In this document: positions 22,236 through 62,085 of the stretch, piece after piece
Layout: every line of letters begins with the position of its first letter
Position numbering within the stretch: the stretch's first letter is position 1
Assembly (NCBI GenBank): GCA_016790225.1
Contig: JAEUOZ010000054.1
Coordinates: 62,001-126,000, forward strand
Direction of reading: 5' to 3'
DNA length: 64,000 bases
DNA from: Rubrivivax sp.
GTDB lineage: Bacteria; Pseudomonadota; Gammaproteobacteria; Burkholderiales; Burkholderiaceae
The notes under the pieces: generated by a model
What the model saw: the letters and a program-made list of their open reading frames with translations, nothing else
The model's database searches: none
What the model was told of the DNA's origin: nothing
Position numbers and translations under genes: made by a program

Positions 22236-22995
22236 GCGCGGCAAGCCGGATCCGGACGCCGGCTTCCTCTCGCGCTGGTCGCGCCGCAAAGCCCTGGCTC
22301 GGGACGGCGAGCCGCTGGCGCCGGAGCCACCGCCACGAGCACCGGGGGCCCATCCCTCGGCGCCTTCACCCGCGGTGGCCCGCGGCGGCCTGATTGCGCC
22401 CGTGGGCGGCGCTGCGGTGCCTGGTGCCGGTGGCGCCGCGCCGCGGGTCGATCCCGCGGGCAGCCCGGCCGGCGATGCCGACTCGGCCCGCGCATCACCA
22501 TCGTCAGAGGCGCCGCAAGCCCCAGCTCCGCGTCCAGCGCTCACGCTGGCTGACGTGGAGCGGCTCACGCCGGAGAGCAACTTCGCCCCGTTCACGGCGC
22601 GCGACGTGGATCCGCAGGTGCGCAACGCCGCGATGAAGAAGCTCTTTCATTCGCAGCCGAGCTTCAATGCGATGGACGGGCTGGATGTCTATGTCGACGA
22701 TTACAGCGTGGGCGAGCCGCTGCCCAAGGCCATCATGCGCACGATGCTGCAGGCCCGTGCGCTGGGCCTGCTGGACGATGAACTGAAGGATCAGGACAAA
22801 CCCGAGCCGGATGAAGGCAACGGGGTTTCTTCGGCCCCCGATACTCAGCGCCCTGATGAAGACGCTGATCTGCAACTGCAACCGCTCGATGCCGCTGGAC
22901 CCGGCGGCACTGACCCAGGCGCTGACGCCCCCGCCATCGGCCCTGCCGGCACCGAAGGGCTGGAGCCCGGCCCCGCAGGGCAGCCCGAGCGCTGA
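22228..22995 (+). CDS. DUF3306 family protein, formate dehydrogenase cluster
   Basis: The protein is 255 residues from the ATG at 22228 (MTERGKPDPDAGFLSRWSRRK, containing the family hallmark GFLSRWSRRK). A Pro/Ala-rich linker follows, then a conserved core (LTPESNFAPFTARDVDPQVRNAAMKKLFHS, FNAMDGLDVYVDDY). The function is unknown, and the family co-occurs with DUF3305. The last 140 bases also encode the start of the polyferredoxin in another frame. The DUF3306 C-terminal tail there is low complexity. Confidence 0.83.
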   Translation: MTERGKPDPDAGFLSRWSRRKALARDGEPLAPEPPPRAPGAHPSAPSPAVARGGLIAPVGGAAVPGAGGAAPRVDPAGSPAGDADSARASPSSEAPQAPAPRPALTLADVERLTPESNFAPFTARDVDPQVRNAAMKKLFHSQPSFNAMDGLDVYVDDYSVGEPLPKAIMRTMLQARALGLLDDELKDQDKPEPDEGNGVSSAPDTQRPDEDADLQLQPLDAAGPGGTDPGADAPAIGPAGTEGLEPGPAGQPER

Positions 22996-25099
22996 CACCG
23001 TCGAAGCCGGCTTTACGACCTTGTGTCGCCGCGAGGCGCCGGCCTTCCAGCGCGCGGCGCGCTCGGGCGAACCGCTGCTGGTGGCCTGCACGCAGGAATC
23101 CCGCCTCTTCCTGGAACTGGCTGAACAGACCGAAGGCGCGCCCGCGCTGCAGGAGCGGCCGATCCGCTTCGTCAACATCCGCGAGACAGCGGGCTGGTCG
23201 CGCGATGCGGGCGAGGCCACGCCCAAGATCGCGGCGCTGATCGCTGCGGCGCGTCTGCCCGATGCCGAGCCGGTGGCCAGCGTCAGCTACCGCAGCGAGG
23301 GCCGCTGCCTGGTCATCGGCCCGGCCGATGCCGCCGAAGCGGCTGCCCGCCTGCTGGAGCCCGATCTCACGGTCAGCGTGCTGGCCACGGCCGGTGCCGG
23401 TGCGCTGGCGCAGCGCCATGAGCGCGCGGTGCACAACGGCTCACTGCAGCGGCTGACCGGACACCTGGGCGCCTTCGAAGTCACGTGGCGCAGCGCCAAC
23501 CCGATCGATCTGGATCTGTGCACGCGCTGCAATGCCTGCATCGATGTCTGCCCCGAAGGCGCGATCGATTTCAGCTACACCGTGGATCTCACGCGCTGTC
23601 GCAGCCACCGCGCCTGCGTCGTGGCCTGCGAGGCTGCCGGCGCCATCGATTTCCAGCGTCCGCCGCAGGACACGACCGAACGTTTCGATCTGGTGCTGGA
23701 TCTGCGCGAGACGCCGGCCTTCACGCAGCACCAGCCGCCACAGGGCTATCTGCACGTCGGATCGGATGCGCTGAAGCTCGCACAGGCGGCGATCACGCTG
23801 CGCGGCTGGGTTGGCGAGTTCGAGAAGCCGCGCTTCTTCCACTACAAGGCCAAGCTCTGCGCCCACAGCCGCAACGAGCAGATCGGCTGCACGGCCTGCA
23901 TCGATGTGTGTTCGGCGCGCGCCATCCGCAGCGATGCCTCGCTCAAGGGCAAGGCGGAGCGCAAGCTGCGCACGACCACCCAGGCCGTGCCCGTGGCGGG
24001 CGGGCAGGGTGGCGGCATCGTGGTCGATCCGCACCTGTGCGTGGGCTGCGGTGCCTGCACGACCGTCTGCCCGACCGGCGCGCTGGGCTACGCCGCGCCG
24101 GACACGGTGGACCAGGGCCGCCGGATCCGCACCCTGCTGCAGGCGTTCCAGAAAGCCGGTGGCCGGCAGCCCGCGCTGCTGGTGCACAGCGAAGGCGCTG
24201 GGCGCCGGCTGATCGAGGATCTGGGCCGCGCCGCGCGTGTGGACCGCAGCCTGCAGGGCGTGCCCGCCCGTGTGCTGCCGATGGCTGTCTGGCACACCGC
24301 CAGCATCGGGCTGGATCTGTGGCTCACCGCCATCGCCCAGGGCGCCAACCAGATCTGGGTGCTGCTCACCGACGAAGAGGCGCCCGAATACCGCGAGGCG
24401 CTGGCCAACCAGATGGCGATCGGCGAAGCCATCCTGCAGGGTCTGGGCTTCGGCGGCATGCACTTGCGCACCCTGCACGCCCGCGATGCGCGGGATCTGG
24501 CGGCACTGGACGCCGCGCTGCGTGCCCAGCCTGCGCAGGGCGTGGCCCGGCCGGCGGCGGTGGCCGCGCAGGCCGAGAAGCGCAGCACGCTGGAACTGGC
24601 GCTGGATGCGCTGCTGGTGGCCGCACCCGAGCGCCCGGCCAGCATCGCGCTGCCCGCCGGCGCGCCGCTGGGCAGCCTGATCGTCGATGCCCAGAAGTGC
24701 ACGCTGTGCCTGTCCTGCGTCGGCGCCTGCCCGCAGGCGGCGCTGGCGGACAACCCCAACCAGCCGCAGCTGCGCTTCATCGAGAAGAACTGCGTGCAGT
24801 GCGGGCTGTGCGTCAAGACCTGCCCGGAAGACGCGCTGACGCTGCAGCCGCGGCTGTGGCTGGAGGACGAAGGCAAGGCGCGCAAGCAGCTGCGCGTGCT
24901 GAACGAGGCCGAGCCTTTCCACTGCGTCAGCTGCGGCAAGCCGTTTGGCACGCTGCGCGCCATCGAGGCCATGGTGGCCAAGATCGGCCAGCACCCGGCC
25001 TTTGCCGGTGCCAACGCCCAGCGCCTGAAGATGTGCGGTGATTGCCGCGTGAACGCGATGTTCTCCAACCCCAACGAAACCCGCATCACGGATCTCTGA
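22856..25099 (+). CDS. Polyferredoxin (4Fe-4S) of the formate dehydrogenase cluster
   Basis: The 747-residue cytoplasmic protein begins with MKTLICNCNRSMPLD, the usual start of this family. It carries several ferredoxin-type clusters: CTRCNACIDVCPEG, CRSHRACVVAC, CTACIDVC, CVGCGACTTVCPTG, CTLCLSCVGACPQ, CVQCGLCVKTCPED, plus a C-terminal CVSCG ... CGDC pair. It probably passes electrons to or from formate dehydrogenase or its maturation system, though direct evidence is lacking for the family. It overlaps DUF3306 by 140 bases and is coupled to the next gene by TGATG. Confidence 0.88.
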   Translation: MKTLICNCNRSMPLDPAALTQALTPPPSALPAPKGWSPAPQGSPSADTVEAGFTTLCRREAPAFQRAARSGEPLLVACTQESRLFLELAEQTEGAPALQERPIRFVNIRETAGWSRDAGEATPKIAALIAAARLPDAEPVASVSYRSEGRCLVIGPADAAEAAARLLEPDLTVSVLATAGAGALAQRHERAVHNGSLQRLTGHLGAFEVTWRSANPIDLDLCTRCNACIDVCPEGAIDFSYTVDLTRCRSHRACVVACEAAGAIDFQRPPQDTTERFDLVLDLRETPAFTQHQPPQGYLHVGSDALKLAQAAITLRGWVGEFEKPRFFHYKAKLCAHSRNEQIGCTACIDVCSARAIRSDASLKGKAERKLRTTTQAVPVAGGQGGGIVVDPHLCVGCGACTTVCPTGALGYAAPDTVDQGRRIRTLLQAFQKAGGRQPALLVHSEGAGRRLIEDLGRAARVDRSLQGVPARVLPMAVWHTASIGLDLWLTAIAQGANQIWVLLTDEEAPEYREALANQMAIGEAILQGLGFGGMHLRTLHARDARDLAALDAALRAQPAQGVARPAAVAAQAEKRSTLELALDALLVAAPERPASIALPAGAPLGSLIVDAQKCTLCLSCVGACPQAALADNPNQPQLRFIEKNCVQCGLCVKTCPEDALTLQPRLWLEDEGKARKQLRVLNEAEPFHCVSCGKPFGTLRAIEAMVAKIGQHPAFAGANAQRLKMCGDCRVNAMFSNPNETRITDL

Positions 25100-25734
25100 T
25101 GAGCGAGCCCGCCAGCCAGACCCTCTCGTTCAGCAGCCCCGAGGAGGGCGAAGAGCTGCAGCGCGCCGAGCTCTACGGGCTGCTGGCGCGGCTGTGGTTT
25201 GCCCCGCCCGATGAGCCGCTGTTGCAGCAGTTTGCCGTGGCCGTGACCGAGGCGCCCGAGGCTGGCGCCTGGCTGGAAGAGCCCTGGCGCCAGCTGGTTG
25301 GCGAGATGCGCAGCATGTCGCTCGCGGACGCCACGGCGGAATTTGTCGCCTTGTTCCAGGGTGCCGGCAAGGCGGAGGTCCTTCCGTATGGCTCCTGGCA
25401 CCTGGCCGGTGCCCTGAACGAACGCCCGCTGGTGGACATGCGCACCGACATCGCCGCCCTGGGCCTGACGCATGCCGCGCCCGAGGGTGAAACCGAAGAT
25501 CACATCGCTTTCCTCTTCGAGGTGATGCGTTACCTGATTGCCGGTGATGATCTGTCGGTATGCAACCTCGAACAGCAGCGCCGCTTCTTCCGCGCCCACA
25601 TCCAGCCGTGGGTCGGCCCCGGCCTGTGCGATGCCGTCGAGCAGCACCCGCAGGCGCGCCTGTACGCTGCGCTGGCCCGCATGACCCGCGCCTTCATCGA
25701 GGTGGAGACGCAGGGCTTCGATCTGATCGAGTAG
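25099..25734 (+). CDS. TorD-like molybdoenzyme chaperone
   Basis: The 211-residue all-helical protein matches the TorD/DmsD family: ELYGLLARLWFAPPDEPLL near the start, EYxxLF-type AEFVALFQGAGKAEVLPYGSWHL, and EDHIAFLFEVMRYLI. It is expected to bind the twin-arginine leader of FdhA and hold the apoenzyme until the molybdenum cofactor is in. The start codon overlaps the ferredoxin stop. Confidence 0.88.
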   Translation: MSEPASQTLSFSSPEEGEELQRAELYGLLARLWFAPPDEPLLQQFAVAVTEAPEAGAWLEEPWRQLVGEMRSMSLADATAEFVALFQGAGKAEVLPYGSWHLAGALNERPLVDMRTDIAALGLTHAAPEGETEDHIAFLFEVMRYLIAGDDLSVCNLEQQRRFFRAHIQPWVGPGLCDAVEQHPQARLYAALARMTRAFIEVETQGFDLIE

Positions 25735-27036: not shown

Positions 27037-28440
27037 TCAAGCACTCAGGTTCAGGTAACCGAGCTGCGCCAGGAAGCGGGCTTCGGGCTCCCCCGCTTCG
27101 AGGCAGCGCAGGTCCAGGCGCAGTTCGCCGTCTTCGATGCGGCCGATCACGGGCACGGGCAGGGCGCGGAAGGCTTCGGCCAGGCGCTCCGGCAGCTTGC
27201 CGGCGCGACGCGTGCCGGGGGCCGGGCCGAGCGCCAGGCAGGCGCTGTCCAGGCGGTCAACCGGCAGCGAGCCGCTGCCGATCTGGCTGCGGCAAGCGCG
27301 AACATGAACCAGGGCGTGGAGACCCACGGCCTGCTGCAGTGGCGGCTGCAGACGCTCAGCCTGCTGGCGCAGCTCAGCGGCGCTGCGTGTGAGCAGCCGC
27401 AGCGCAGGCAGGCGTTGGGCCAGGCGATCCGGATCGCGGTAGAGCTTGAGCGTGGCTTCGAGTGCCGCGATGGTCATCTTGTCCAGGCGCAACGATCGCT
27501 TCAGCGGGCACTTCTTGATGCGTGCGATCAGGTCCTTGCGGCCGACGATCAGCCCGGCCTGCGGGCCGCCCAGCAGCTTGTCGCCGCTGAAGGTGACCAC
27601 GTCCACGCCGGCGGCGATGGATTGCGCCGGCGTGGGCTCGGCAGGCAGGCCGAAGCGGGTGAGATCGACCAGCGTGCCGCTGCCCAGATCCTCGGCGAAG
27701 GGGATGCCCTTGGCAAGGCACAGCGCGGCCAGTTCCGACGGCGGCACGGCAGCCGTGAAGCCCTGCACCGCGTAGTTGCTGGTGTGCACCTTCATCACCA
27801 GGCCCGTCTTGGGGCCGATGGCCTCGGCAAAGTCACGCAGGTGCGTGCGGTTGGTGGTGCCCACCTCGACCAGCCGGCAGCCGGCGCGGCGCATGATGTC
27901 CGGGATGCGGAAGGCGCCGCCGATCTCGATCAGTTCACCGCGCGAGACCGGCACTTCCTTGCGCTCGGCCAGGGCCGCCAGCACCAGCAGCACGGCGGCG
28001 GCATTGTTGTTGACCACCGTGGCCGCCTCGGCACCGGTGAGTTCGCGCAGCAGGCCGTCGAGGTGGTCGTCGCGGTCGCCGCGGGCGCCGGTGGCCAGAT
28101 CGAACTCCAGGTTCGAGGCGCCGCGCATCACGGCCACCACGGCCTCGATGGCCTCGGGCGCCATCAGCGCGCGGCCCAGGTTGGTGTGCAGCACGGTGCC
28201 GGTGAGGTTGAATACCGGGCGCAAGGCGGCCGATGCCTTGCGCTCCAGTTCAGCCGCGCACCGCGCTTCGAAGCTGGCGGTATCGAAGCCGGTGCCAGGC
28301 GCCTGCGCGCGCCAGGCCTCCAGCTGCGATCGCGCCACGCCCAGGGTGGCCGCGCGGCCGTGCTGCGCCACCAGCTGCCTCAGCGGGGCCGAATCGAGCA
28401 GCTTGTCCAGCGAAGGCGGGCGGATCAGGGTGTCGGCCAT
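27037..28440 (-). CDS. selA: L-seryl-tRNA(Sec) selenium transferase
   Basis: SelA converts Ser-tRNA(Sec) to Sec-tRNA(Sec) with selenophosphate in a decameric PLP enzyme. The 467-residue protein is full length (E. coli about 463). Sequences seen include [49 protein letters not shown], the PLP lysine in [22 protein letters not shown], and [14 protein letters not shown] start at the ATG at 28440 ([15 protein letters not shown]); it lies 25 bases after the tRNA-Sec 3' end, so gene and tRNA are likely on one transcript. The enzyme looks intact, with no sign of decay. selD is not in the window. Confidence 0.96.
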
Positions 28441-28465: not shown

Positions 28466-28562
28466 TGGCGGAGGGGGGTGGGAGTCGAACCCACCTGGGA
28501 CTGCGGAGCAACCCCACCCGGTTTTGCAGACCGGACGCCCCACCGGGGGTCGATCCTCCTCC
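28466..28562 (-). tRNA. selC: Selenocysteine tRNA with GCA (cysteine-codon) anticodon
   Basis: The 97-base gene encodes its CCA. Reading the minus strand: acceptor 5' strand GGAGGAGG pairs with CCCCCUCC (7 of 8 bp, one A-C mismatch); two linker bases; a 6-bp D stem with one bulged A closed by a CGGU loop identical to the one I recall for E. coli tRNA-Sec; a 6-bp anticodon stem UCCGGU/ACCGGG; a long variable arm of 8 bp (GGGGUUGC/GCAGUCCC, UCC loop); a T arm of 5 bp with UUCGACU loop; G73. The 8-bp acceptor plus 5-bp T stem (13 bp in all) and G73 define bacterial tRNA-Sec. The anticodon loop (28523-28529) reads CUGCAAA, so the anticodon is GCA, not UCA. It should decode UGC/UGU, not UGA. It lies 3 bases after the selB stop. 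Confidence 0.95.
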
Positions 28563-28565
28563 AAC

Positions 28566-30488
28566 TCAGGCGCCGAACATCTTGCGCGGATCGCGCTTGA
28601 AGTGACGGCCCAGGGCATCGCGCGCCGTCAGGCCCACCTGATCAAAGAACTCTACCAGCGGCACGCTCAGGTGGCGGCTGATGCCCATCTTCTCCCTCAT
28701 CTCACGCACGTTGAGGCGCTGGTGGGCATCGGCCTGCGCCAGCGCCTGCGCACCCAGCGCCAGTTGCAGCAGGTGGTGCGTCTGGATCACGTACTCCGCG
28801 CCCACCGCATGGACCTGGCCCATGCGCTGCAGGCGCTGCAGCGTGCGCATCACCTGATCCTTGCGCAGGCTGCGATCGCGCTCCAGCATCTCGCTGAGCT
28901 TGGGCGGATGGATGCCGCCTTCGTCCAGCCAGGGCTTCAGCCGTTCCCAGATCTGCTTCTCCGCCCCCTGCAGCGTGACCTCATGGCCGGCCAGTGCCAG
29001 GTGCGGGCCGCTGCGCCGCAGCAGGCCTTCCTTGACCCAGGCAGCCAGCAGCAGGGCAAAGACGGCGGTGGCCGGCTTGTCGCGCAGCTGTCGCGTCAGC
29101 TGCTCCTGCGTCAAGCCCGGGCTGTCCGGTGATTTGCGGTGGTAGTTGCCCAGCAGCTCGGTCACGCGCGTGGCGTAGCGCTCCAGCTGGCCGGGCGCAA
29201 ACAGCAGGCGGCGCGTGCCGTCCACCAGCGCGCGGTGCGGCACGGCGGCCAGCAGCGCAGCCTGGGGCTCGGGCGTGAGGTTCCACAGCGTGAAGAAGGG
29301 CTGGGCATCCACGCCCTGGGCGGGCTCCAGCGCCAGCAGGCCGGCCAGGGCCTCCGGCGCGGTCGGCCGTTCCAGCGCCTGCAAGGCGGCCAGGCGCTGT
29401 GCGCGGCGGCGCCGCGTGGGTGGCGGAAAGATGTCGATGACCGTGCCGCCGCCCAGGGTGCGCAGCGCGGACTGATCGCGCAGGATGAAACGGTCACCCC
29501 GCAGCGCGCCGATCGGGCGATCCAGATCCAGCTGCACCAGCGCTTCGCGGCCCGGTCGAACGGCTTCGTCCTCCAGCAGCACGACGCGGGCGTTCACGTC
29601 TTCCGCGCCCAGGTGCAGGTGCACCGGCGTCCAGTGCGCCAGCGCCCGCGCTTCGCCGGGCAGCAGCCGCAGCCGCACGTCCAGCCGTGCGCTGGGCGCG
29701 TGCACGGCGTCGGCCAGCAGCCAGTCGCCACGCTGCACCTCGCTTTTCTCGACGCCGGCGAGGTTCAGCGCCAGGCGCTGGCCGGCATGTCCCGCCGTGG
29801 CCTGGCGGTTCTGCGCATGCAGCCCGCGCACGCGGACTTCCAGGCCCTTGGGCGACAGCCGCAGCCGATCGCCCACGGCCACCTGGCCGCTCACGGCCGT
29901 GCCGGTGACGACCGTGCCGATGCCGGCCAGCGTGAAGCTGCGGTCGATCGCCAGCCGGAAATGGCCTTGGGTGGATCGTTGGACGATCGCCCGGCGGGCG
30001 GCTTCCAGTGCCTCGCGCAGCGCGTCCAGACCCTCGCCGGTGACGCTGGAGACGGGCAGCACCGGTGCCTGGGCCAGGCCCGTGCCGGCCAGCAGCGTGC
30101 GCAGCTGAGCGCGCAGCTCGGCCAGGCGCTCGGGGCTGGCGAGATCGCACTTGCTCAGGACGACGATGCCCTGATCCAGGCCCAGCAGATCCAGGATGGC
30201 CAGGTGCTCCAGCGTCTGCGGCATCGGGCCGTCATCGGCGGCGATCACCAGCAGCACATGGTCGATGCCGGTGGCGCCGGCCAGCATGTTGCGCACCAGC
30301 TTCTCGTGGCCCGGTACGTCGACGAAACCCAACACATCGCCGTCTGCAAGGGGCTGGTAAGCGAAGCCCAGATCGACGGTGATGCCGCGCTCCTTCTCTT
30401 CCTTCAGGCGGTCGGCGTCGATGCCGGTGAGCGCCTTCACCAGCGAGGTCTTGCCATGGTCGATATGGCCGGCAGTTCCTACGATCAA
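28566..30488 (-). CDS. selB: Selenocysteine-specific elongation factor SelB
   Basis: SelB carries Sec-tRNA(Sec) to the ribosome and binds the SECIS hairpin with C-terminal winged-helix domains. The 640-residue protein has G1 [19 protein letters not shown] at its start, the switch region [16 protein letters not shown]3 [13 protein letters not shown]4 SKCD, then EF-Tu-like domains II/III, a fourth domain and C-terminal winged helices (about residues 380-640; [37 protein letters not shown]). I choose the TTG at 30488, which gives the canonical M-I-V-G-T-A-G-H start behind an AAGGG element; there is no in-frame ATG there. The gene is complete and not degraded. Confidence 0.95.
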
Positions 30489-30596
30489 GTTGAAGCCCTT
30501 GGTGGATTGAGGGTCAAAGGGCCCCCTGCTTGGGGTGGCCGAAGGCGTCGTTTTTACCTCTGTCACGAGCGACAGACGGGACTGGAATGGTTGACT

Positions 30597-30608
30597 CGGG
30601 TTTACCCG
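30597..30608. other. Inverted repeat in the selB / fdh divergent region
   Basis: The 210-base divergent spacer (30489-30698) between selB and the fdh operon holds a short palindrome with arms CGGGT and ACCCG around TT, just after a TTGACT hexamer at 30591. A matching -10 hexamer is not found at normal spacing, so promoter and operator remain unassigned. Confidence 0.2.
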
Positions 30609-30698
30609 CACTTGTGGCACTTGTGTCGAGTGCTTCCAATGTTCGTGTCGCAGGATCGTCATGGCACCCATGACGGCGCGTTCCACACAGGAGTCACG

Positions 30699-30911
30699 AT
30701 GTCCGAGCGCAAGGAGACCCTCGCACGCCGCACGCTGCTTGGCGGCGCCGTCACGGCCACCGCCGCAGCGGGTGCTGTCGCGTTGATGCCCTCGCGGCCC
30801 GAGCCGCAAGCCGTGCCGCAAGCGCTGGCCCAGGCCGGCGACGCGGCCCAGGGCGAGGGCTATCGCCTGACCGAGCACGTCCGGCAGTACTACGCCACCA
30901 CCCGCATCTGA
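30699..30911 (+). CDS. Formate dehydrogenase region twin-arginine target protein
   Basis: The 70-residue protein has the twin-arginine leader ARRTLLGGAVTATAAAGAVAL and a short C-terminal domain ending YRLTEHVRQYYATTRI. This matches the small family found immediately before fdhA in FDH3 clusters. It may assist FdhA export or assembly; its role is unproven. The ATG at 30699 has an ACAGGAG ribosome binding site five bases upstream. Confidence 0.88.
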   Translation: MSERKETLARRTLLGGAVTATAAAGAVALMPSRPEPQAVPQALAQAGDAAQGEGYRLTEHVRQYYATTRI

Positions 30912-30965
30912 CGGCCCGGCACCCTTGTCGTACTGTCTGCTTCAGTCGTCCCACAGGAGGGATTC

Positions 30966-33926
30966 ATGCTGTTGACACGCAAGTCACCGGGGGGAGGGGC
31001 GGCTGCGTCGTCCCGCACCCTGGTCGACAGTCTGGCGCGCGGCATCTCGCGCGCCGTGCCGACGATGGATCGGCGCAGGTTCCTGCGCCGTTCCGGGCTC
31101 GGCCTGGGGGCCGGCATCGCGGCTTCGCAACTCACCCTCGTGCGCAAGGCCGATGCCGCCGATGCGCCGGCCGCCAAGGATGGCGGCAAGAAGATCGAGG
31201 TCAAGCGCACGGTGTGCACGCACTGCTCGGTGGGCTGTGCCATCGATGCGGTGGTCGAGAACGGCGTCTGGGTGCGCCAGGAGCCGGTCTTCGATTCGCC
31301 CATCAACCTGGGCGCGCACTGCGCCAAGGGCGCGGCGGTGCGCGACAACGGGCACGGCGAATACCGCCTGAAGTACCCGATGAAGCTGGTGGACGGCAAG
31401 TACGTCCGCATCAGCTGGGATCAGGCGCTGGACGAGATCAGCGCCCGCATGCTGGAGCTGCGCAAGGAAAGCGGGCCCGACAGCATCTTCATCGTCGGTT
31501 CCTGCAAGAGCAATAACGAACAAGGTTATTTGCTCAGGAAGTGGATGAGCCTCTGGGGCAGCAACAACTGCGACCACCAGGCACGAATATGCCACTCCAC
31601 GACTGTCGCCGGTGTGGCGAATACGTGGGGATACGGTGCGATGACCAACTCGTACAACGATATGCAGAACGCCAAGGCGGCGATGTATATCGGCAGCAAC
31701 GCAGCCGAGGCGCATCCCGTCTCCTTGCTGCACATGCTGCATGCGAAGGAAAAGGGCTGCAAGATGATCGTGGTGGACCCCCGGTTCACCCGCACGGCGG
31801 CCAAGGCGGACATGTACGTGCGCATGCGCTCGGGGGCGGACATTCCGTTCCTCTACGGCGTGATGTACCACGTGTTCAAGAACGGCTGGGAAGACAAGAA
31901 ATACGTCGAGGACCGCGTCTGGGGCATGGACAAGGTGCGCGACGAGGTGATGGCCAAGTGGACGCCCGAGAAGGTGTTCGAGGCCTCCGGCGTCAGCGAA
32001 GACCAGTGCTACCAGGTTGCCAAGACGCTGGCCGAGAACCGGCCCAGCACGCTGGTCTGGTGCGTGGGCCACACGCAGCACACCATCGGCAATGCGATGG
32101 TGCGGGCTTCCTGCCTGCTGCAGCTGGCGCTGGGCAACATCGGCAAGAGTGGCGGCGGGGCCAACATCTTCCGCGGCCACGACAACGTGCAGGGCATCAC
32201 CGATGTCGGCATGAACCCCGATTCGCTGCCGGGCTATTACGGCATCACCGAAGGTGCGTTCAAGCACTACGCCGCTGTCTGGGGCGTCGACTTCGAGTGG
32301 ATCAAGAAGCAGTACGCCCCGGGCATGCTGAGCAAGCCGGGCCTGACGATCTCGCGCTGGTTCGACGCCGTGCTGGAGAAGAACGAGGTCATCGACCAGC
32401 CGAGCAACCTGCGCGGCATGTTCTATTGGGGCCATGCACCCAATTCGCAGACGCGCGGGCTGGAACTCAAGCAGGCGCTGGACAAGCTGGATCTGCTGGT
32501 GGTGGTGGATCCCTTCCCCAGCGCCACCGCGGCCATGGCCGCGATGCCGGGCAAGGCGGCGGATCTCAACCCCAAGCGCGCGGTATACCTGCTGCCGGCC
32601 TGCACGCAGTTCGAGACCACCGGTTCGGTCACGGCCTCCAACCGTTCACTGCAGTGGCGAGAGATGGTCATGGAGCCGCTGTACGAATCGCGCAGCGACC
32701 ACATGATCATGTACCAGCTCGCCAAGAAGCTGGGCTTCGGCACGGAGCTGGTCAAGAACTACAAGCTGCAGAAGATCAAGGGGCAGGAGGAGCCGCTGCC
32801 GGAGGACATCCTGCGCGAGATCAATCGCGCGGTCTGGACCATCGGCTACACGGGCCAGAGCCCGGAGCGTCTGAAGGCGCACATGCGCAACATGCATGTG
32901 TTCGACGTCAATACGCTGCGGGCCAAGGGTGGCATCGACAAGGAGACCGGCTACAAGCTCGACGGCGAGTACTTCGGCCTGCCCTGGCCCTGCTACGGCA
33001 CGCCGGAGATGAAGCACCCGGGCACGCACATCCTGTACGACCCGTCCAAGCACGTGATGGAAGGGGGCGGCAACTTCCGCGCCAACTTCGGCGTGGAGCG
33101 TGACGGCCAGAGCCTGCTGGCCGGCGACGGATCGCATTCCAAGGGGGCCGACATCACCACCGGCTACCCGGAGTTCGATCACCTGCTGCTGAAGAAGCTG
33201 GGCTGGTGGGATGAGCTGACGGACGAAGAGAAGAAGAAGGCCGAAGGCAAGAACTGGAAGACCGACCCCACCGGGGCGATCATCCGCGTGGCCATGAAGA
33301 ACCATGGCTGCCATCCCTTCGGCAACGCCAAGGCGCGCGCCATCGTCTGGAACTTCCCGGATCCGATCCCGCAGCACCGCGAGCCGCTGTACTCCACCCG
33401 CCCCGAGCTGGTGGCCAAGTACCCGACGCACGATGACCGCAAGACGTTGTGGCGCCTGCCGACCCTGTTCAAGTCCGTCCAGGAGAAGAACAAGGACAGC
33501 GTCAAGGCCTACCCGCTGATCCTGACCAGCGGCCGCCTCGTGGAATACGAAGGCGGTGGCGACGAGACGCGGTCCAACCGCTATCTGGCCGAGCTGCAGC
33601 AGGACATGTTCGTCGAGATCAACCCGGCTGCGGCCAACGACCGTGGCATACGCCACGGCGAGAAGGTGTGGGTGACCACGCCGACCGGCGCGCGGATCAA
33701 GGTCAAGGCGCAGGTGACGGAGCGGGTGGACCGAGAGACGGCCTTCATGCCATTCCACTATGCCGGCCACTGGCAGGGCGTGGACATGCAGGCCTACTAC
33801 CCGGCTGGCACGGTGCCCATGGTGCGCGGTGAAGCGGTCAATACGGCAACGACGTATGGCTACGACATCGTGACCATGATGCAGGAGACCAAGACCACGG
33901 TCTGCCAGATCGAGAAGGCTGCTTGA
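30966..33926 (+). CDS. fdhA: Formate dehydrogenase catalytic subunit, predicted selenoprotein with Sec at a UGC codon
   Basis: The 986-residue molybdopterin oxidoreductase starts behind AGGAGG. It has a twin-arginine signal (DRRRFLRRSGLGLGAG, about residues 35-50), an N-terminal [4Fe-4S] site (C84, C87, C91, C119), molybdopterin domains (TQHTIGNAMVRA, GGANIFRGHDNVQG) and a C-terminal MGD-binding domain (ILTSGRLVEYEGGGDETRSNRY). The residue that ligates molybdenum is position 209 in ARICHSTTVAG; in Sec-type formate dehydrogenases this is ARxU-H. Here the codon is TGC at 31590-31592, followed by a SECIS-like hairpin and matched by the tRNA-Sec(GCA) encoded 3 kb away. I therefore predict Sec at residue 209, possibly mixed with Cys. 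If the tRNA were inactive, it would be an ordinary Cys enzyme. Confidence 0.93.
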   Translation: MLLTRKSPGGGAAASSRTLVDSLARGISRAVPTMDRRRFLRRSGLGLGAGIAASQLTLVRKADAADAPAAKDGGKKIEVKRTVCTHCSVGCAIDAVVENGVWVRQEPVFDSPINLGAHCAKGAAVRDNGHGEYRLKYPMKLVDGKYVRISWDQALDEISARMLELRKESGPDSIFIVGSCKSNNEQGYLLRKWMSLWGSNNCDHQARICHSTTVAGVANTWGYGAMTNSYNDMQNAKAAMYIGSNAAEAHPVSLLHMLHAKEKGCKMIVVDPRFTRTAAKADMYVRMRSGADIPFLYGVMYHVFKNGWEDKKYVEDRVWGMDKVRDEVMAKWTPEKVFEASGVSEDQCYQVAKTLAENRPSTLVWCVGHTQHTIGNAMVRASCLLQLALGNIGKSGGGANIFRGHDNVQGITDVGMNPDSLPGYYGITEGAFKHYAAVWGVDFEWIKKQYAPGMLSKPGLTISRWFDAVLEKNEVIDQPSNLRGMFYWGHAPNSQTRGLELKQALDKLDLLVVVDPFPSATAAMAAMPGKAADLNPKRAVYLLPACTQFETTGSVTASNRSLQWREMVMEPLYESRSDHMIMYQLAKKLGFGTELVKNYKLQKIKGQEEPLPEDILREINRAVWTIGYTGQSPERLKAHMRNMHVFDVNTLRAKGGIDKETGYKLDGEYFGLPWPCYGTPEMKHPGTHILYDPSKHVMEGGGNFRANFGVERDGQSLLAGDGSHSKGADITTGYPEFDHLLLKKLGWWDELTDEEKKKAEGKNWKTDPTGAIIRVAMKNHGCHPFGNAKARAIVWNFPDPIPQHREPLYSTRPELVAKYPTHDDRKTLWRLPTLFKSVQEKNKDSVKAYPLILTSGRLVEYEGGGDETRSNRYLAELQQDMFVEINPAAANDRGIRHGEKVWVTTPTGARIKVKAQVTERVDRETAFMPFHYAGHWQGVDMQAYYPAGTVPMVRGEAVNTATTYGYDIVTMMQETKTTVCQIEKAA
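31590..31592 (+). other. Proposed recoded selenocysteine codon UGC in fdhA
   Basis: This codon 209 occupies the exact alignment position of the E. coli FdhF Sec codon (E. coli UHGPSVAG; here CHSTTVAG). The three bases are the Watson-Crick complement of the GCA anticodon of the neighbouring tRNA-Sec. Both ends of the usual UGA/UCA pair have changed in concert. Incorporation of Sec is inferred, not shown. Confidence 0.75.
31595..31630 (+). promoter_or_regulatory. SECIS-like hairpin directly after the fdhA UGC codon
   Basis: The lower stem of 7 bp pairs 31595-31601 (CUCCACG) with 31624-31630 (CGUGGGG, one U-G pair). An asymmetric internal loop is ACUG opposite AUA. The upper stem of 5 bp pairs 31606-31610 (UCGCC) with 31616-31620 (GGCGA). 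The apical loop GGUGU (31611-31615) contains the G-U needed by SelB. Exactly 18 bases lie between the UGC and the loop GGU, the same as I recall for E. coli fdhF. Base U31606, next to the internal loop, could act as the bulged U of known bacterial SECIS, or it could pair with A31620. A purely Cys enzyme would have no reason to keep this structure. Confidence 0.8.
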
Positions 33927-33987: not shown

Positions 33988-34617
33988 ATGGCCCGAATGA
34001 AATTCATCTGTGACGCTGACCGCTGCATCGAATGCAACGGCTGCGTCACCGCCTGCAAGGCCGAGCACGACGTGCCCTGGGGCGTGAACCGCCGCCGCGT
34101 GGTCACGCTCAATGATGGTCTGCCCGGCGAAAAGAGCATCTCCGTGGCGTGCATGCACTGCTCGGATGCGCCCTGCATGGCCGTGTGCCCGGTGGACTGC
34201 TTCTACCGCACCGCCGAGGGTGTGGTGCTGCACGACAAGGACGTGTGCATCGGCTGCGGCTACTGCAGCTATGCCTGCCCGTTCGGCGCGCCGCAGTTCC
34301 CCACCAACGGCACCTTCGGCCTGCGCGGCAAGATGGACAAGTGCACCTTCTGCGCCGGAGGCCCCGAGGCCAACGGCTCCGATGCAGAGAACAGCAAGTA
34401 CGGTCGCAACCGGCTGGCCGAGGGCAAGCTGCCCATCTGTGCGGAGATGTGCTCGACCAAGGCGCTGCTGGGTGGTGACGGCGACGTGGTGGCGGACATC
34501 TTCCGCAGTCGCGTGCTGCAACGCGGCAAGGGCAGCGAGGTCTGGGGCTGGGGCACCGCCTATGGCAAGCCCGCCGGTGGCGCCACGAAGCCGCCGCCCC
34601 AAGGGCCGCGGTCATGA
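33988..34617 (+). CDS. fdhB: Formate dehydrogenase FDH3 iron-sulfur (beta) subunit
   Basis: The 209-residue electron-transfer subunit has four cysteine clusters: CDADRCIECNGCVTACKAEH, CMHCSDAPCMAVCPVDC, CIGCGYCSYACPFGAPQ, and CTFC ... CAEMCSTKAL. It passes electrons from FdhA to the membrane subunit. The ATG at 33988 follows an AAAGGGAAAT ribosome binding region. The stop overlaps the next gene by 4 bases (ATGA). Confidence 0.95.
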   Translation: MARMKFICDADRCIECNGCVTACKAEHDVPWGVNRRRVVTLNDGLPGEKSISVACMHCSDAPCMAVCPVDCFYRTAEGVVLHDKDVCIGCGYCSYACPFGAPQFPTNGTFGLRGKMDKCTFCAGGPEANGSDAENSKYGRNRLAEGKLPICAEMCSTKALLGGDGDVVADIFRSRVLQRGKGSEVWGWGTAYGKPAGGATKPPPQGPRS

Positions 34618-34859
34618 GCCGGCTTCAGACCTTGCGCCTGCCCACCCTGGGGGTGCTGCTGGTAGCCAGTCTTCTGGTTGCCTGCAGCGATCGCCGCGAC
34701 ACCACTTCCACCACCCGCAAGGTGGATGACAGCGTGATCGCCGGGGCTCAGCCGGGCTATCACTCGCCAGGCTGGAAGGCGGGTGACGCCACGAGCTGGG
34801 AGGTGCACATGCGCATGCGCGCCCAGGCACAGAACGAATATGTGAAGACCGGCAACTGA
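34614..34859 (+). CDS. Small lipoprotein encoded between fdhB and fdhC
   Basis: The 81-residue protein has a lipoprotein signal (LVASLLVACSD, Cys about residue 24), so it should be anchored to a membrane facing the periplasm. The short mature part has a basic Asp/Thr/Arg stretch, then AGDATSWEVHMRMRAQAQNEYVKTGN. I recognise no family. It overlaps both fdhB (ATGA) and the long reading of fdhC (TGATG), so it is an integral, translationally coupled part of the operon. A role in holding the formate dehydrogenase complex at the membrane is only a guess. Confidence 0.75.
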   Translation: MSRLQTLRLPTLGVLLVASLLVACSDRRDTTSTTRKVDDSVIAGAQPGYHSPGWKAGDATSWEVHMRMRAQAQNEYVKTGN

Positions 34860-34882
34860 TGCAGCGTGCTGGAGGATCCGGG

Positions 34883-36061
34883 ATGAACCGTTTCACCCTT
34901 GAGGCGTGCATGCAGCGGCCCATTGCCTGGATGGCGATGCCGCTCGCCGCGCTCGTGATGTGCCTGGGGCTTGCAGGCCCGGCGGCCGCGCAAGACAAGG
35001 CCTCAGAGGCTTCGGCCGCGCCCAAAGGCCCGCCAGCCGGTTTTGTGGCCCCAGCGGAACCCAAGCCGGGCGAGACGCAGGCGGAGCGCGCGAAGTCACA
35101 GCCCGGCAACAATGCGCCGACCTGGTCTGCCGTGCGTGACTCCGGCCAGAAGCCGGGCGTCACTTCCCTTCCGGGGGCCGAGAAGGGCGTGCTCATCCAG
35201 TCCTTCGTCCAGTACCCGGGTTCGCGCCTCACCACGGCCGGTGAGGCCTGGCGCCAGGTGCGCAACAACTGGATCATTCCGTATGGCGGTGCGCTGATGC
35301 TGATCGTCGGTCTGGCGATCGCCATCTTCTACTGGCGCAAGGGGCCTCTCGGCCACGCGGGCAACGACGGTCCGCCGGCCATCGAGCGATTCACGCCGCT
35401 GGAACGCGCGGCGCACTGGACAACCGCGATCAGCTTCGTGATCCTGGCGGTGTCCGGCATCGTGATGGCTTTCGGCAAATACATCCTGCTGCCCATCATC
35501 GGCAGCACGTTGTTCGGCTGGATCACCTATGCACTGAAGACGGCGCACAACTTCGTCGGCCCGGTGTTTTCCGTCGCGCTGGTGATCCTGTTGCTGATCT
35601 TCGTGAAGGACAACATCGCCCGCAAGGCGGACTTCGTCTGGGTCAGCAAGGCCGGCGGCATGCTGGGCGACCACGAGATTCCCTCCCACCGCTTCAATGG
35701 CGGCGAAAAGGGCCTGTTCTGGTGGGGCATGTGCTTCCCCGGGCTGATCGTCATCGGTTCCGGCCTGGTTCTGGATCTGCTGGTGCCGGGTCTCGGCCAG
35801 ACCCGTGGCCAGATGCAGGTCGCCCACATGATCCACGCGGTGGCGTCGATCTGGATGATGGCGGCGCTGGCAGGACACATCTACATGGGCTCGGTCGGCG
35901 CCCGCGGAGCCTACAAGGCCATGCGCACGGGCTGGGTCGACGAAGCCTGGGCGAAGGAACACCACCAGCTCTGGTACGACGACGTCAAGGCCGGCAAGAT
36001 CCCTGCGCAGCGCTCTCAGGAACCGGCGCCGCCGATCGGCTCCGCTGCGCCTTCGGCCTGA
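34883..36061 (+). CDS. fdhC: Formate dehydrogenase cytochrome b556 (gamma) subunit
   Basis: The 392-residue protein has an N-terminal signal/transmembrane segment (WMAMPLAALVMCLGLAGPAAAQ), a periplasmic Pro/Ala-rich linker, then at least four helices of the FdhC/FdoI type (WIIPYGGALMLIVGLAIAIFYW, FVILAVSGIVMAFGKYIL, FVGPVFSVALVILLLIFV, MCFPGLIVIGSGLVLDLLV, MIHAVASIWMMAALAGHIYMG). The histidines (AAHWTTA, KTAHNF, AHMIH, GHIYMG) would bind two b hemes. It transfers electrons to quinone. I use the ATG at 34883 because GGAGGA lies 6 bases before it; an ATG at 34859 is possible. Confidence 0.93.
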   Translation: MNRFTLEACMQRPIAWMAMPLAALVMCLGLAGPAAAQDKASEASAAPKGPPAGFVAPAEPKPGETQAERAKSQPGNNAPTWSAVRDSGQKPGVTSLPGAEKGVLIQSFVQYPGSRLTTAGEAWRQVRNNWIIPYGGALMLIVGLAIAIFYWRKGPLGHAGNDGPPAIERFTPLERAAHWTTAISFVILAVSGIVMAFGKYILLPIIGSTLFGWITYALKTAHNFVGPVFSVALVILLLIFVKDNIARKADFVWVSKAGGMLGDHEIPSHRFNGGEKGLFWWGMCFPGLIVIGSGLVLDLLVPGLGQTRGQMQVAHMIHAVASIWMMAALAGHIYMGSVGARGAYKAMRTGWVDEAWAKEHHQLWYDDVKAGKIPAQRSQEPAPPIGSAAPSA

Positions 36062-36576: not shown

Positions 36577-37506
36577 ATGCCGCCACTGCCCAAGCCTGCC
36601 CTCGACAGCGAGCGCGCCTTCGCCTGGCCCGAGCCGCCCGCGCGTGCGTCTGTGCCGGGTGCGCCGCGTCTCACGCAGGCCCGCTGCGAGTGGCTGCGCG
36701 AGATCGAGATCCTTGATGAGCACGGCGAGCGGCGGCCGATCCACATTCCCTGCGAACGGCCGCTGACGATCTTCGTCGACAAGCGCGAACTGGTCACGCT
36801 GATGACGCTGGGCGCGATGCCCGAGCTGCTCGTGCTGGGCTACCTGCGCAACCAGCACCTGATCGCGCAGGCGGCCGAGGTCGAATCGATCACCGTCGAT
36901 TGGGACGTCGCTTCCGCCGCGGTGAAGACGCACCATGGCATCGACGGGTTCGAGACCCGCACCTCGCGCCGCGTGGTGACCACCGGCTGCGGCCAGGGCA
37001 CGGTCTTCGGCGATGCGATGGCGCAGGTCGATGCGCTGACGCTGCCGGATGTGCACAGTGCGCGCCTGCGCCAGGGCACGCTGCACCGCATGCTGGAGAC
37101 CATGCGCCAGCAGGACAGCATCCACCGCAAGGCCGGCTCGGTGCACGGCTGCGCGCTGTTCCAGGAAGGCGAGCTGCTGATGTTCGTCGAGGACGTGGGC
37201 CGCCACAACGCCATCGACACCATCACCGGCTGGATGGCGCTGCACGGGGTGCAGGGCGGCGACAAGGCGCTCTACACGACCGGGCGCCTGACCAGCGAGA
37301 TGGTGATGAAGGCCGCCACCATCGGCGTGCCCATCGTGGTGTCGCGCAACGGCGTCACGGCGATGGGCTTCGATCTGGCGCAGCGCCTGGGCATGGCCCT
37401 CTTCGGGCGTGCGGCCAACCGCCATTTTCTCTGCTACACCGGCGCCGAGCGCTTCGATTCCGAGCCGGAGCTGCGGCCCGTGCCGGTGCGCGTGGTCAGC
37501 GGCTGA
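36577..37506 (+). CDS. fdhD: Formate dehydrogenase accessory sulfurtransferase FdhD
   Basis: FdhD carries sulfur from IscS to the molybdenum cofactor, which is essential for formate dehydrogenase activity. The 309-residue protein has IPCERPLTIFVDKRELVTLMTLGAMPELLVLGYLRNQHLI, the loop TTGCGQGTVFGD, EDVGRHNAIDTITGW, TTGRLTSEMVMKAA and SRNGVTAMGFDLAQRLG. The sulfur-carrying CxxC known from E. coli is here CGQG, so only the first Cys is present. The stop is one base from the end of the convergent next gene. Confidence 0.95.
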   Translation: MPPLPKPALDSERAFAWPEPPARASVPGAPRLTQARCEWLREIEILDEHGERRPIHIPCERPLTIFVDKRELVTLMTLGAMPELLVLGYLRNQHLIAQAAEVESITVDWDVASAAVKTHHGIDGFETRTSRRVVTTGCGQGTVFGDAMAQVDALTLPDVHSARLRQGTLHRMLETMRQQDSIHRKAGSVHGCALFQEGELLMFVEDVGRHNAIDTITGWMALHGVQGGDKALYTTGRLTSEMVMKAATIGVPIVVSRNGVTAMGFDLAQRLGMALFGRAANRHFLCYTGAERFDSEPELRPVPVRVVSG

Positions 37507-61482: not shown

Positions 61483-62085
61483 GTGCCATCCTTCCTGCAA
61501 GCCCTCGAAGAACAGCGCTGGGACGACCACCGCTACTACCACCAGAGTCGCATCAACCAGAGCCTTCACCTGGTCAGCGCCCTGAGCTTCATCGTCGCCT
61601 ACGGCCTGCTGTTCATCGATCCGGCCAAGGCGGCGCTGGTGGCCTGGGGCATCTCGATGGTCACGCGCCAGTCGGGCCACGTCTTCTTCGAGCCGCAGGG
61701 CTACGACCATGCCAACCAGTGCAGCCACGAGCACAAGGAAGCCATCAAGGTGGGCTACAACCTGCGCCGCAAGGTCGTGCTGCTGTCCGCCTGGGCTGCA
61801 GCGCCCGTGGCGCTGTGGATGTCGCCGTCCCTGCTGGGCCTGATCGAGCCCAGCACCACGCCGGCGGAGTTTGTCAATGACGTGGGCCTTCTGTGGCTGG
61901 CCCTGGGCATCGCGGCGCTGCTGTTCCGCACGCTGCACCTGTTCTACCTGCGCGACGTGCGCACGGGTCTGGTGTGGATCACCAAGATCATCACGGATCC
62001 CTTTCATGACGTGATGCTGTACTGGAAGGCGCCGCTCTATCTGCTGCGCGGCGAACTCATCGATCCGGCGCCGAACAAGCGCTGA
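61483..62085 (+). CDS. Hypothetical multi-span membrane protein
   Basis: The 200-residue protein starts at a GTG with AGGAG 7 bases upstream (VPSFLQALEEQRWDDHR). It has about four hydrophobic helices (LHLVSALSFIVAYGLLFI, AALVAWGISMV, VVLLSAWAAAPVALWM, LLWLALGIAALLFRTLHL). Conserved-looking polar residues in or near membranes are HHSRINQSLH-type HQSRINQSLH and GHVFFEPQGYDHANQCSHEHKE. The His-rich region could bind metal, as in Mpo1-like proteins, but similarity is too loose to claim. Family unknown. Confidence 0.7.
   Translation: MPSFLQALEEQRWDDHRYYHQSRINQSLHLVSALSFIVAYGLLFIDPAKAALVAWGISMVTRQSGHVFFEPQGYDHANQCSHEHKEAIKVGYNLRRKVVLLSAWAAAPVALWMSPSLLGLIEPSTTPAEFVNDVGLLWLALGIAALLFRTLHLFYLRDVRTGLVWITKIITDPFHDVMLYWKAPLYLLRGELIDPAPNKR

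Follow-up and report, generated by a model that had tools for sequence, protein, structure and literature searches.

The described system closest to the locus reported here is the sense-codon selenocysteine (Sec) system of Aeromonas salmonicida (Mukai et al. 2016), in which a tRNA-Sec with a cysteine (Cys) anticodon is combined with a recoded Cys codon; statements on the literature refer throughout to passages of the cited papers. Both components are also found in a 64,000-nucleotide stretch of Rubrivivax sp. (positions 62,001 to 126,000 of contig JAEUOZ010000054.1, assembly GCA_016790225.1), hereafter the window, where a tRNA-Sec gene with the anticodon GCA stands between selA and selB, and codon 209 of the nearby formate dehydrogenase gene fdhA is UGC, followed by a hairpin of the Sec insertion sequence (SECIS) type. 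Based on sequence comparison, this UGC is predicted with high confidence to be read as Sec, the mechanism and history proposed below included.

Sec at Cys codons has precedents, as the preliminary description of this locus had stated. Reviews list ten sense codons that are read by tRNA-Sec variants, among them the Cys codon UGU in A. salmonicida (PMC10778597); they also state that UGC and UGU are used for Sec (PMC8124441) and that the GCA tRNA-Sec of A. salmonicida reads UGC (PMC11415595), thus disagreeing on UGU versus UGC. In comparison with that system, the present one belongs to Burkholderiales, concerns an FDH3-type enzyme, is fixed in 21 sequences, and has a codon that probably was already Cys. 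The UGA Sec system of Escherichia coli (fdhF, selABCD) has the same parts, SECIS spacing, and loop GGU, but pairs UGA with UCA and has release factor 2 as the competitor, whereas here UGC is paired with GCA and the competitor is Cys-tRNA. The selC* tRNA-Cys species are Sec-like tRNAs as well, some of them with GCA; they have, however, U73 and the identity of a cysteinyl-tRNA synthetase (CysRS) substrate (PMC7609411), in contrast to the G73 and the retained selA found here. The UAG Sec systems of Geodermatophilaceae also combine a variant tRNA-Sec anticodon with the matching codon (PMC5330540), although theirs is a stop codon in another phylum and the one considered here is a sense codon.

As for the literature on sense-codon Sec, GCA tRNA-Sec, and Rubrivivax formate dehydrogenases, no report of the present clade was found in titles, abstract openings, and passages, which is not proof of absence. 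That Sec has evolved from Cys is generally known (PMC1794560), and no description of a Sec gain without a codon change was found in literature passages on Cys-to-Sec evolution. The likely route of gain, the clade-wide fixation, and a cultured carrier appear to be new here.

tRNA-Sec with the GCA anticodon

The tRNA-Sec gene (28466..28562, minus strand) scores 65.3 bits on Rfam RF01852, whose gathering score is 47, and carries GCA at 28525-28527, which agrees with the intact fold and the anticodon given in the preliminary description. ARAGORN reads the same anticodon (gca) and labels the gene "tRNA-Cys". The molecule has G73, an 8-bp acceptor stem, a 5-bp T stem, and an 8-bp variable arm. Among 18 aligned GCA tRNAs, 97.0% of the pair cells are standard (95.6 in shuffles), 4 pairs are changed on both sides (shuffle mean 0.5), and G73 is invariant (18/18) where selC* tRNAs have the U73 associated with CysRS identity. 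A sequencing error at the anticodon was considered and ruled out, since 20 other assemblies carry GCA.

The gene is flanked by selA for Sec synthase (27037..28440, minus strand, start codon picked by eye; TIGR00474, 575.2 bits) and by selB for the Sec-specific elongation factor (conserved part 28566..30497, minus strand, with the frame open further upstream; TIGR00475, 405.5 bits). Both frames are open and both scores exceed the model cut-offs, in agreement with the intact genes first described.

A second tRNA-Sec with UCA was not detected in 18 of the 20 other GCA genomes, whose assemblies may be incomplete. One strict pattern for ordinary tRNA-Cys was matched in 10 of 21 clade genomes and in G065, a related genome with a UCA tRNA-Sec, all of these being tRNA-Cys (gca) according to ARAGORN. 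Plasmid records contain no tRNA match above 90% identity (anticodons there not read).

The UGC site and SECIS hairpin of fdhA

The catalytic subunit gene fdhA (30966..33926, plus strand) has TIGR01591 as its best model, with 463 bits against a cut-off of 666, and is assigned to FDH3 by the FDH3 beta subunit gene that adjoins it (NF038355). Codon 209 (31590..31592, plus strand), confirmed as TGC in the window, corresponds in the alignment to UGA codon 140 of E. coli fdhF and presumably specifies the residue that binds molybdenum. The hairpin behind it (31595..31630, plus strand) has an apical stem at 31606-31620 and the loop GGUGU at 31611-31615. The window gene and E. coli fdhF agree in the 18 nt that separate codon and loop, in having U at position 17, and in the loop GGU; U17 and the loop GGU bases are presumably those contacted by SelB. 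The 43 nt from codon 209 onward fold with −19.4 kcal/mol (z −2.36, 5 of 200 shuffles equally good), in comparison with z −1.28 for E. coli fdhF. Over this length, 3 SECIS genes have z values of −1.84 to −2.36, whereas those of 5 Cys relatives range from 0.34 to 2.46. A longer stem including the upstream GGCA was tried and dropped, as it folds differently among relatives.

Comparison with related genes places the hairpin well beyond chance. In addition to the window, fdhA was read in 20 GCA genomes and in G031, and all 22 genes have TGC at the site and are identical in 57 of 57 scored bases, which supports the hairpin first noted. The consensus was derived from the SECIS group itself, so that 57/57 is a statement of uniformity, and the comparison of synonymous changes is the actual test. 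The 48 Cys relatives (29 near, 19 far) reach 43-51 of the 57 bases; matches below 50% identity were left out of this scoring, L201 being read separately, and the fragment L203 does not cover the site. These relatives represent a strong control because their peptide at the site, RICHSTTVAGVANTWGYGAM, is that of the SECIS genes, with S for A in one of them. The loop GGU is present in 22/22 SECIS genes versus 7/29 near and 9/19 far Cys relatives.

The synonymous test used genes of full or nearly full length (19 SECIS, 27 near, 19 far). For the SECIS genes, the mean pairwise synonymous codon difference is 0.09 at the site versus 0.314 elsewhere, and 0 of 288 other windows along the gene are as low. 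The near Cys relatives show the opposite, with 0.373 at the site versus 0.261 elsewhere (143 of 158 windows as low or lower), and the far ones show 0.532 versus 0.508 (51 of 64 windows as low or lower). The far group consists of 19 rows for 18 different genes, as the gene of G100 (L204 = L207) is counted twice in this test and in the FdhA tree, though once in the AUA and GGU counts. A chance hairpin was thus ruled out by the scarcity of synonymous changes at the site and by the Cys relatives serving as controls, and not by folding energy.

The codon directly 5′ of the site (31587-31589) is AUA in 22/22 SECIS genes versus 0/48 Cys relatives. It is a rare codon (3 of 154 Ile codons in eight window genes) and falls outside the hairpin; perhaps it affects decoding.

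According to a SECIS model search in 22 genomes, each of the 20 GCA genomes and G031 has exactly one strong site (76.8-78.6 bits), and the UCA genome G065 has none. The next best place scores 22.4 bits and is the second fdhA of G085 (G085:C80, L214), which matches 46 of 57 bases, has no SECIS pattern, and should stay Cys, thus providing a natural internal control. No further UGC-SECIS gene was found above 22.4 bits with 150 candidates per genome and a model biased toward fdhA, which a divergent SECIS would escape. The match between GCA and UGC observed in the window is accordingly repeated in all 20 other GCA genomes, each of which has a UGC-SECIS site.

Distribution and Sec machinery of the carriers

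When genome contigs were scanned with the window SelB and the best 80 of 575 loci were taken, a long tRNA stood beside SelB at 56 of them (8 GCA and 48 TCA) and at none of the remaining 24. The 8 GCA loci head the list of these 80, with 65-72% SelB identity, followed by L009 with 51%. In the genus of carrier G001, 36 of 81 genomes have a tRNA-Sec at E ≤1e-9; 38 genes were read, 15 of them GCA and 23 TCA, and both kinds occur in G053 and G086, one gene each. A model built from GCA tRNAs matches 107 of 399 genomes in a family sample, and the best 30 of these matches comprise 6 GCA and 24 TCA, adding one new GCA genome (G630). In total, the GCA tRNA-Sec is present in the window and 20 genomes.

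The FdhA of one carrier, G081, is identical to that of Rubrivivax sp. A210 at 983 of 983 residues. A210 is an isolate from an iron-manganese biofilm in a freshwater pond (PMC8218464), and neither "selen" nor "formate dehydrogenase" appears in the main text of that paper. A210 is accordingly taken as a cultured environmental carrier of the GCA tRNA-Sec system, which makes the prediction directly testable.

Searches for selA, selB, and selD covered 19 GCA genomes; G630 was left out, and its contig has selA and selB. In these 19 genomes, selD, for which the preliminary description had proposed a search, scores above the cut-off in 16, and selA and selB were found in 18 each. In five carriers (G003, G025, G034, G046, and G081), selA is of a different lineage and lies away from the tRNA, about 6.6 kb from it in G081 and on another contig in the other four. 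In-frame UGA selenoproteins had likewise been proposed for searching, and a search of 22 genomes for a UGA FDH-N found it in G086 and the UCA genome G065 only (E ≤1e-150).

Proposed decoding and its consequences

The UGC is very probably Sec because the GCA carriers all share the UGC site with 57/57 bases and selD is present in 16 of 19. This supports the earlier proposal of Sec insertion at this codon in competition with Cys-tRNA, as do the comparison of relatives and the lack of a detected second UCA tRNA in 18 of 20 genomes. In the proposed mechanism, seryl-tRNA synthetase would charge the GCA tRNA-Sec with serine (Ser), SelA would turn the serine into Sec using selenophosphate from SelD, and SelB would bring the Sec-tRNA to the single UGC that precedes a SECIS. 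As SelB requires the hairpin, Cys would still be inserted at all other Cys codons. Codon 209 would be contested by Cys-tRNA-Cys bound to EF-Tu, so that the enzyme probably contains Sec in the presence of selenium and Cys in its absence.

Such decoding needs no new mechanism because E. coli with altered tRNA-Sec anticodons incorporates Sec, with some efficiency, at 58 of 64 codons (PMC10778597). A different route is known from E. coli without selC, which mis-inserts Sec at Cys codons in excess selenite (PMC3636253), but this route is not expected to freeze a SECIS.

As for the wider reading, in which a Cys enzyme became a selenoenzyme without a change of the codon or of nearby amino acids, the site is a fail-safe Sec/Cys position throughout the clade, and at least one relative uses two codes, the evidence considered here gives it about an even chance. 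If it is true, a protein can gain an amino acid at a sense codon that itself does not change: the tRNA moves and silent bases form the address label. Some selenoproteins may then be filed as plain cysteine proteins, because ARAGORN reports a "tRNA-Cys" and the enzyme appears in public records as an ordinary formate dehydrogenase (best 120 of 7999 scored relatives in an FdhA search of protein records only).

Evolutionary history

All trees result from quick searches without bootstraps, those of SelA and SelB being unrooted. In the FdhA tree (65 rows), the SECIS genes form one clade with Shimodaira-Hasegawa-like approximate likelihood ratio test (SH-aLRT) support of 98; its sister group is Cys (96), and further Cys genes lie outside. 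In a class sample of 185 genomes, 22 have FdhA at E ≤1e-150, and the site, read in 21, is Cys in 20 and Tyr in one (L201, 49% identity). No TGA was found at the site in these 21 genomes or in the 29 near relatives; the near relatives have 28 TGC and 1 TGT, the far ones 14 TGT and 5 TGC. A TAA inside the G217 fragment was put down to assembly noise. UGA enzymes near UCA systems belong to another subfamily (about 28-35% identity), with the peptides HGPTV or HAPTV versus RICHSTTVAG here.

According to the SelB tree, the GCA carriers form one clade (100), which the UCA SelBs of L009 and L306 adjoin (94); the SelB of G065 is placed elsewhere in this tree. The SelA of the UCA genome G065 groups with the 15 adjacent GCA SelAs (99; those 15 together 96), and of nine UCA tRNAs compared, that of G065 comes closest to the GCA tRNAs, with up to 93% identity.

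Based on these sequences, the anticodon probably changed from UCA to GCA. The fdhA codon was probably UGC already, because the relatives have a Cys codon at the site and never TGA, and the SECIS was probably built from silent sites. Thus, a Cys-type FDH3 would have been captured by the Sec machinery through a tRNA-Sec anticodon change and synonymous substitutions forming the SECIS, with the codon unchanged. The preliminary description had the codon and the anticodon change together from UGA/UCA; its anticodon part agrees with the tRNA and SelA of G065, while its codon part does not agree with the Cys codons of the relatives.

Relatives carrying both systems

Two relatives, G053 (L119, L131, L224-L228) and G086 (L118, L132, L229), each combine a single SelA with two distinct tRNA-Sec genes, GCA and UCA, each of which has its own SelB. 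A second UCA tRNA-Sec together with UGA selenoproteins had been named at the outset as a finding that would speak against Sec at UGC; it exists partly in these two genomes, but beside a GCA system that has its own SelB. No UGA FDH-N was found in G053. The dual systems may represent mixed genomes in the assemblies. The two G053 contigs have a similar tetranucleotide composition (0.09) and differ from other members (at least 0.2), although binning itself selects for composition; for G086, contig composition gives no clear answer. As part of the wider reading given an even chance above, at least G053, and less surely G086, would use a UGC code beside a UGA code with two tRNA-Sec species, two SelBs, and one shared SelA.

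Alternative explanations

The same decoding today could have been reached from an ancestral fdhA with UGA and a UCA tRNA, both of which changed to UGC and GCA. Sec-to-Cys conversions are commonest in FdhA (PMC1794560), and UCA was probably the earlier anticodon of the tRNA, but the sampled sites are Cys or Tyr and not TGA, and the peptide at the site is of the Cys type, unlike that of the UGA enzymes found. With the SECIS clade nested inside Cys enzymes and no UGA FDH3 found among the relatives read, this joint history is doubtful and considered unlikely. According to another explanation, the enzyme now contains Cys, and the tRNA, SelA, SelB, and the hairpin persist from a Sec system that has been lost. 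There are known cases of SECIS-like hairpins remaining behind Cys codons, e.g., in Mannheimia FdhA (PMC1794560), and acceptor mismatches in GCA tRNAs as well as the G031 hairpin without a detected tRNA-Sec or SelB would fit such a decay. The synonymous sites are, however, frozen although the proteins are down to 73% identical, the tRNA pairs covary, selA, selB, and selD are kept in most of the clade, and a matching anticodon in all 21 carriers is unexpected for a relic tRNA, which makes a relic very improbable.

An equally slight probability is given to SelB delivering Cys, as with a selC* tRNA-Cys, or Ser instead of Sec. CysRS recognizes GCA as a strong identity element (PMC7609411). The GCA tRNAs, however, have G73 in 18/18 versus the U73 of tRNA-Cys (PMC7609411) and the 8+5 acceptor branch of tRNA-Sec, and both selA and selD have been retained. 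In the window, selB adjoins the tRNA, selA, and a small TAT gene, with no second CysRS gene there. As for Ser, it would presumably spoil the metal site.

Several observations weigh against reading UGC as Sec. By folding energy alone, the hairpin is modestly unusual: longer stretches fold less unusually (54 nt, z −1.36; 69 nt, z −1.35), and at 69 nt the SECIS genes (−1.35, −0.74, and −0.54) are barely apart from one Cys relative (−0.29). Acceptor pair 6 of the tRNA is mismatched (A.C or C.A) in 9/18 GCA sequences, including the A.C of the window, and pair 8 in 5/18. The selD gene was not found in the assemblies of G003, G004, and G022, nor selA in that of G001, and G022 has only a partial selB. 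The fdhA of G031 (G031:C302, L158) has the full SECIS, yet no tRNA-Sec or SelB was found in this assembly, which may reflect an incomplete genome or a recent loss. The carriers at L001-L008 are all metagenome assemblies, and a UGA form of FDH3 could exist beyond the sample.

Neighboring genes

A small formate dehydrogenase region TAT target protein is encoded between selB and fdhA (30699..30911, plus strand; TIGR02811, 50.7 bits versus a cut-off of 48.45). Downstream of fdhA, also on the plus strand, lie the genes of the iron-sulfur FDH3 beta subunit (33988..34617; NF038355, 336 bits) and the cytochrome b gamma subunit of formate dehydrogenase (34859..36061; TIGR01583, 160.8 bits), both above the cut-offs, followed by an FdhD-like sulfurtransferase (36577..37506; TIGR00129, 134.4 bits, slightly below the cut-off of 140.9). 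Upstream of the Sec cluster, positions 22811-25734 encode a multi-cluster ferredoxin-like protein and a TorD-like chaperone (below cut-off), which perhaps belong to the formate dehydrogenase region.

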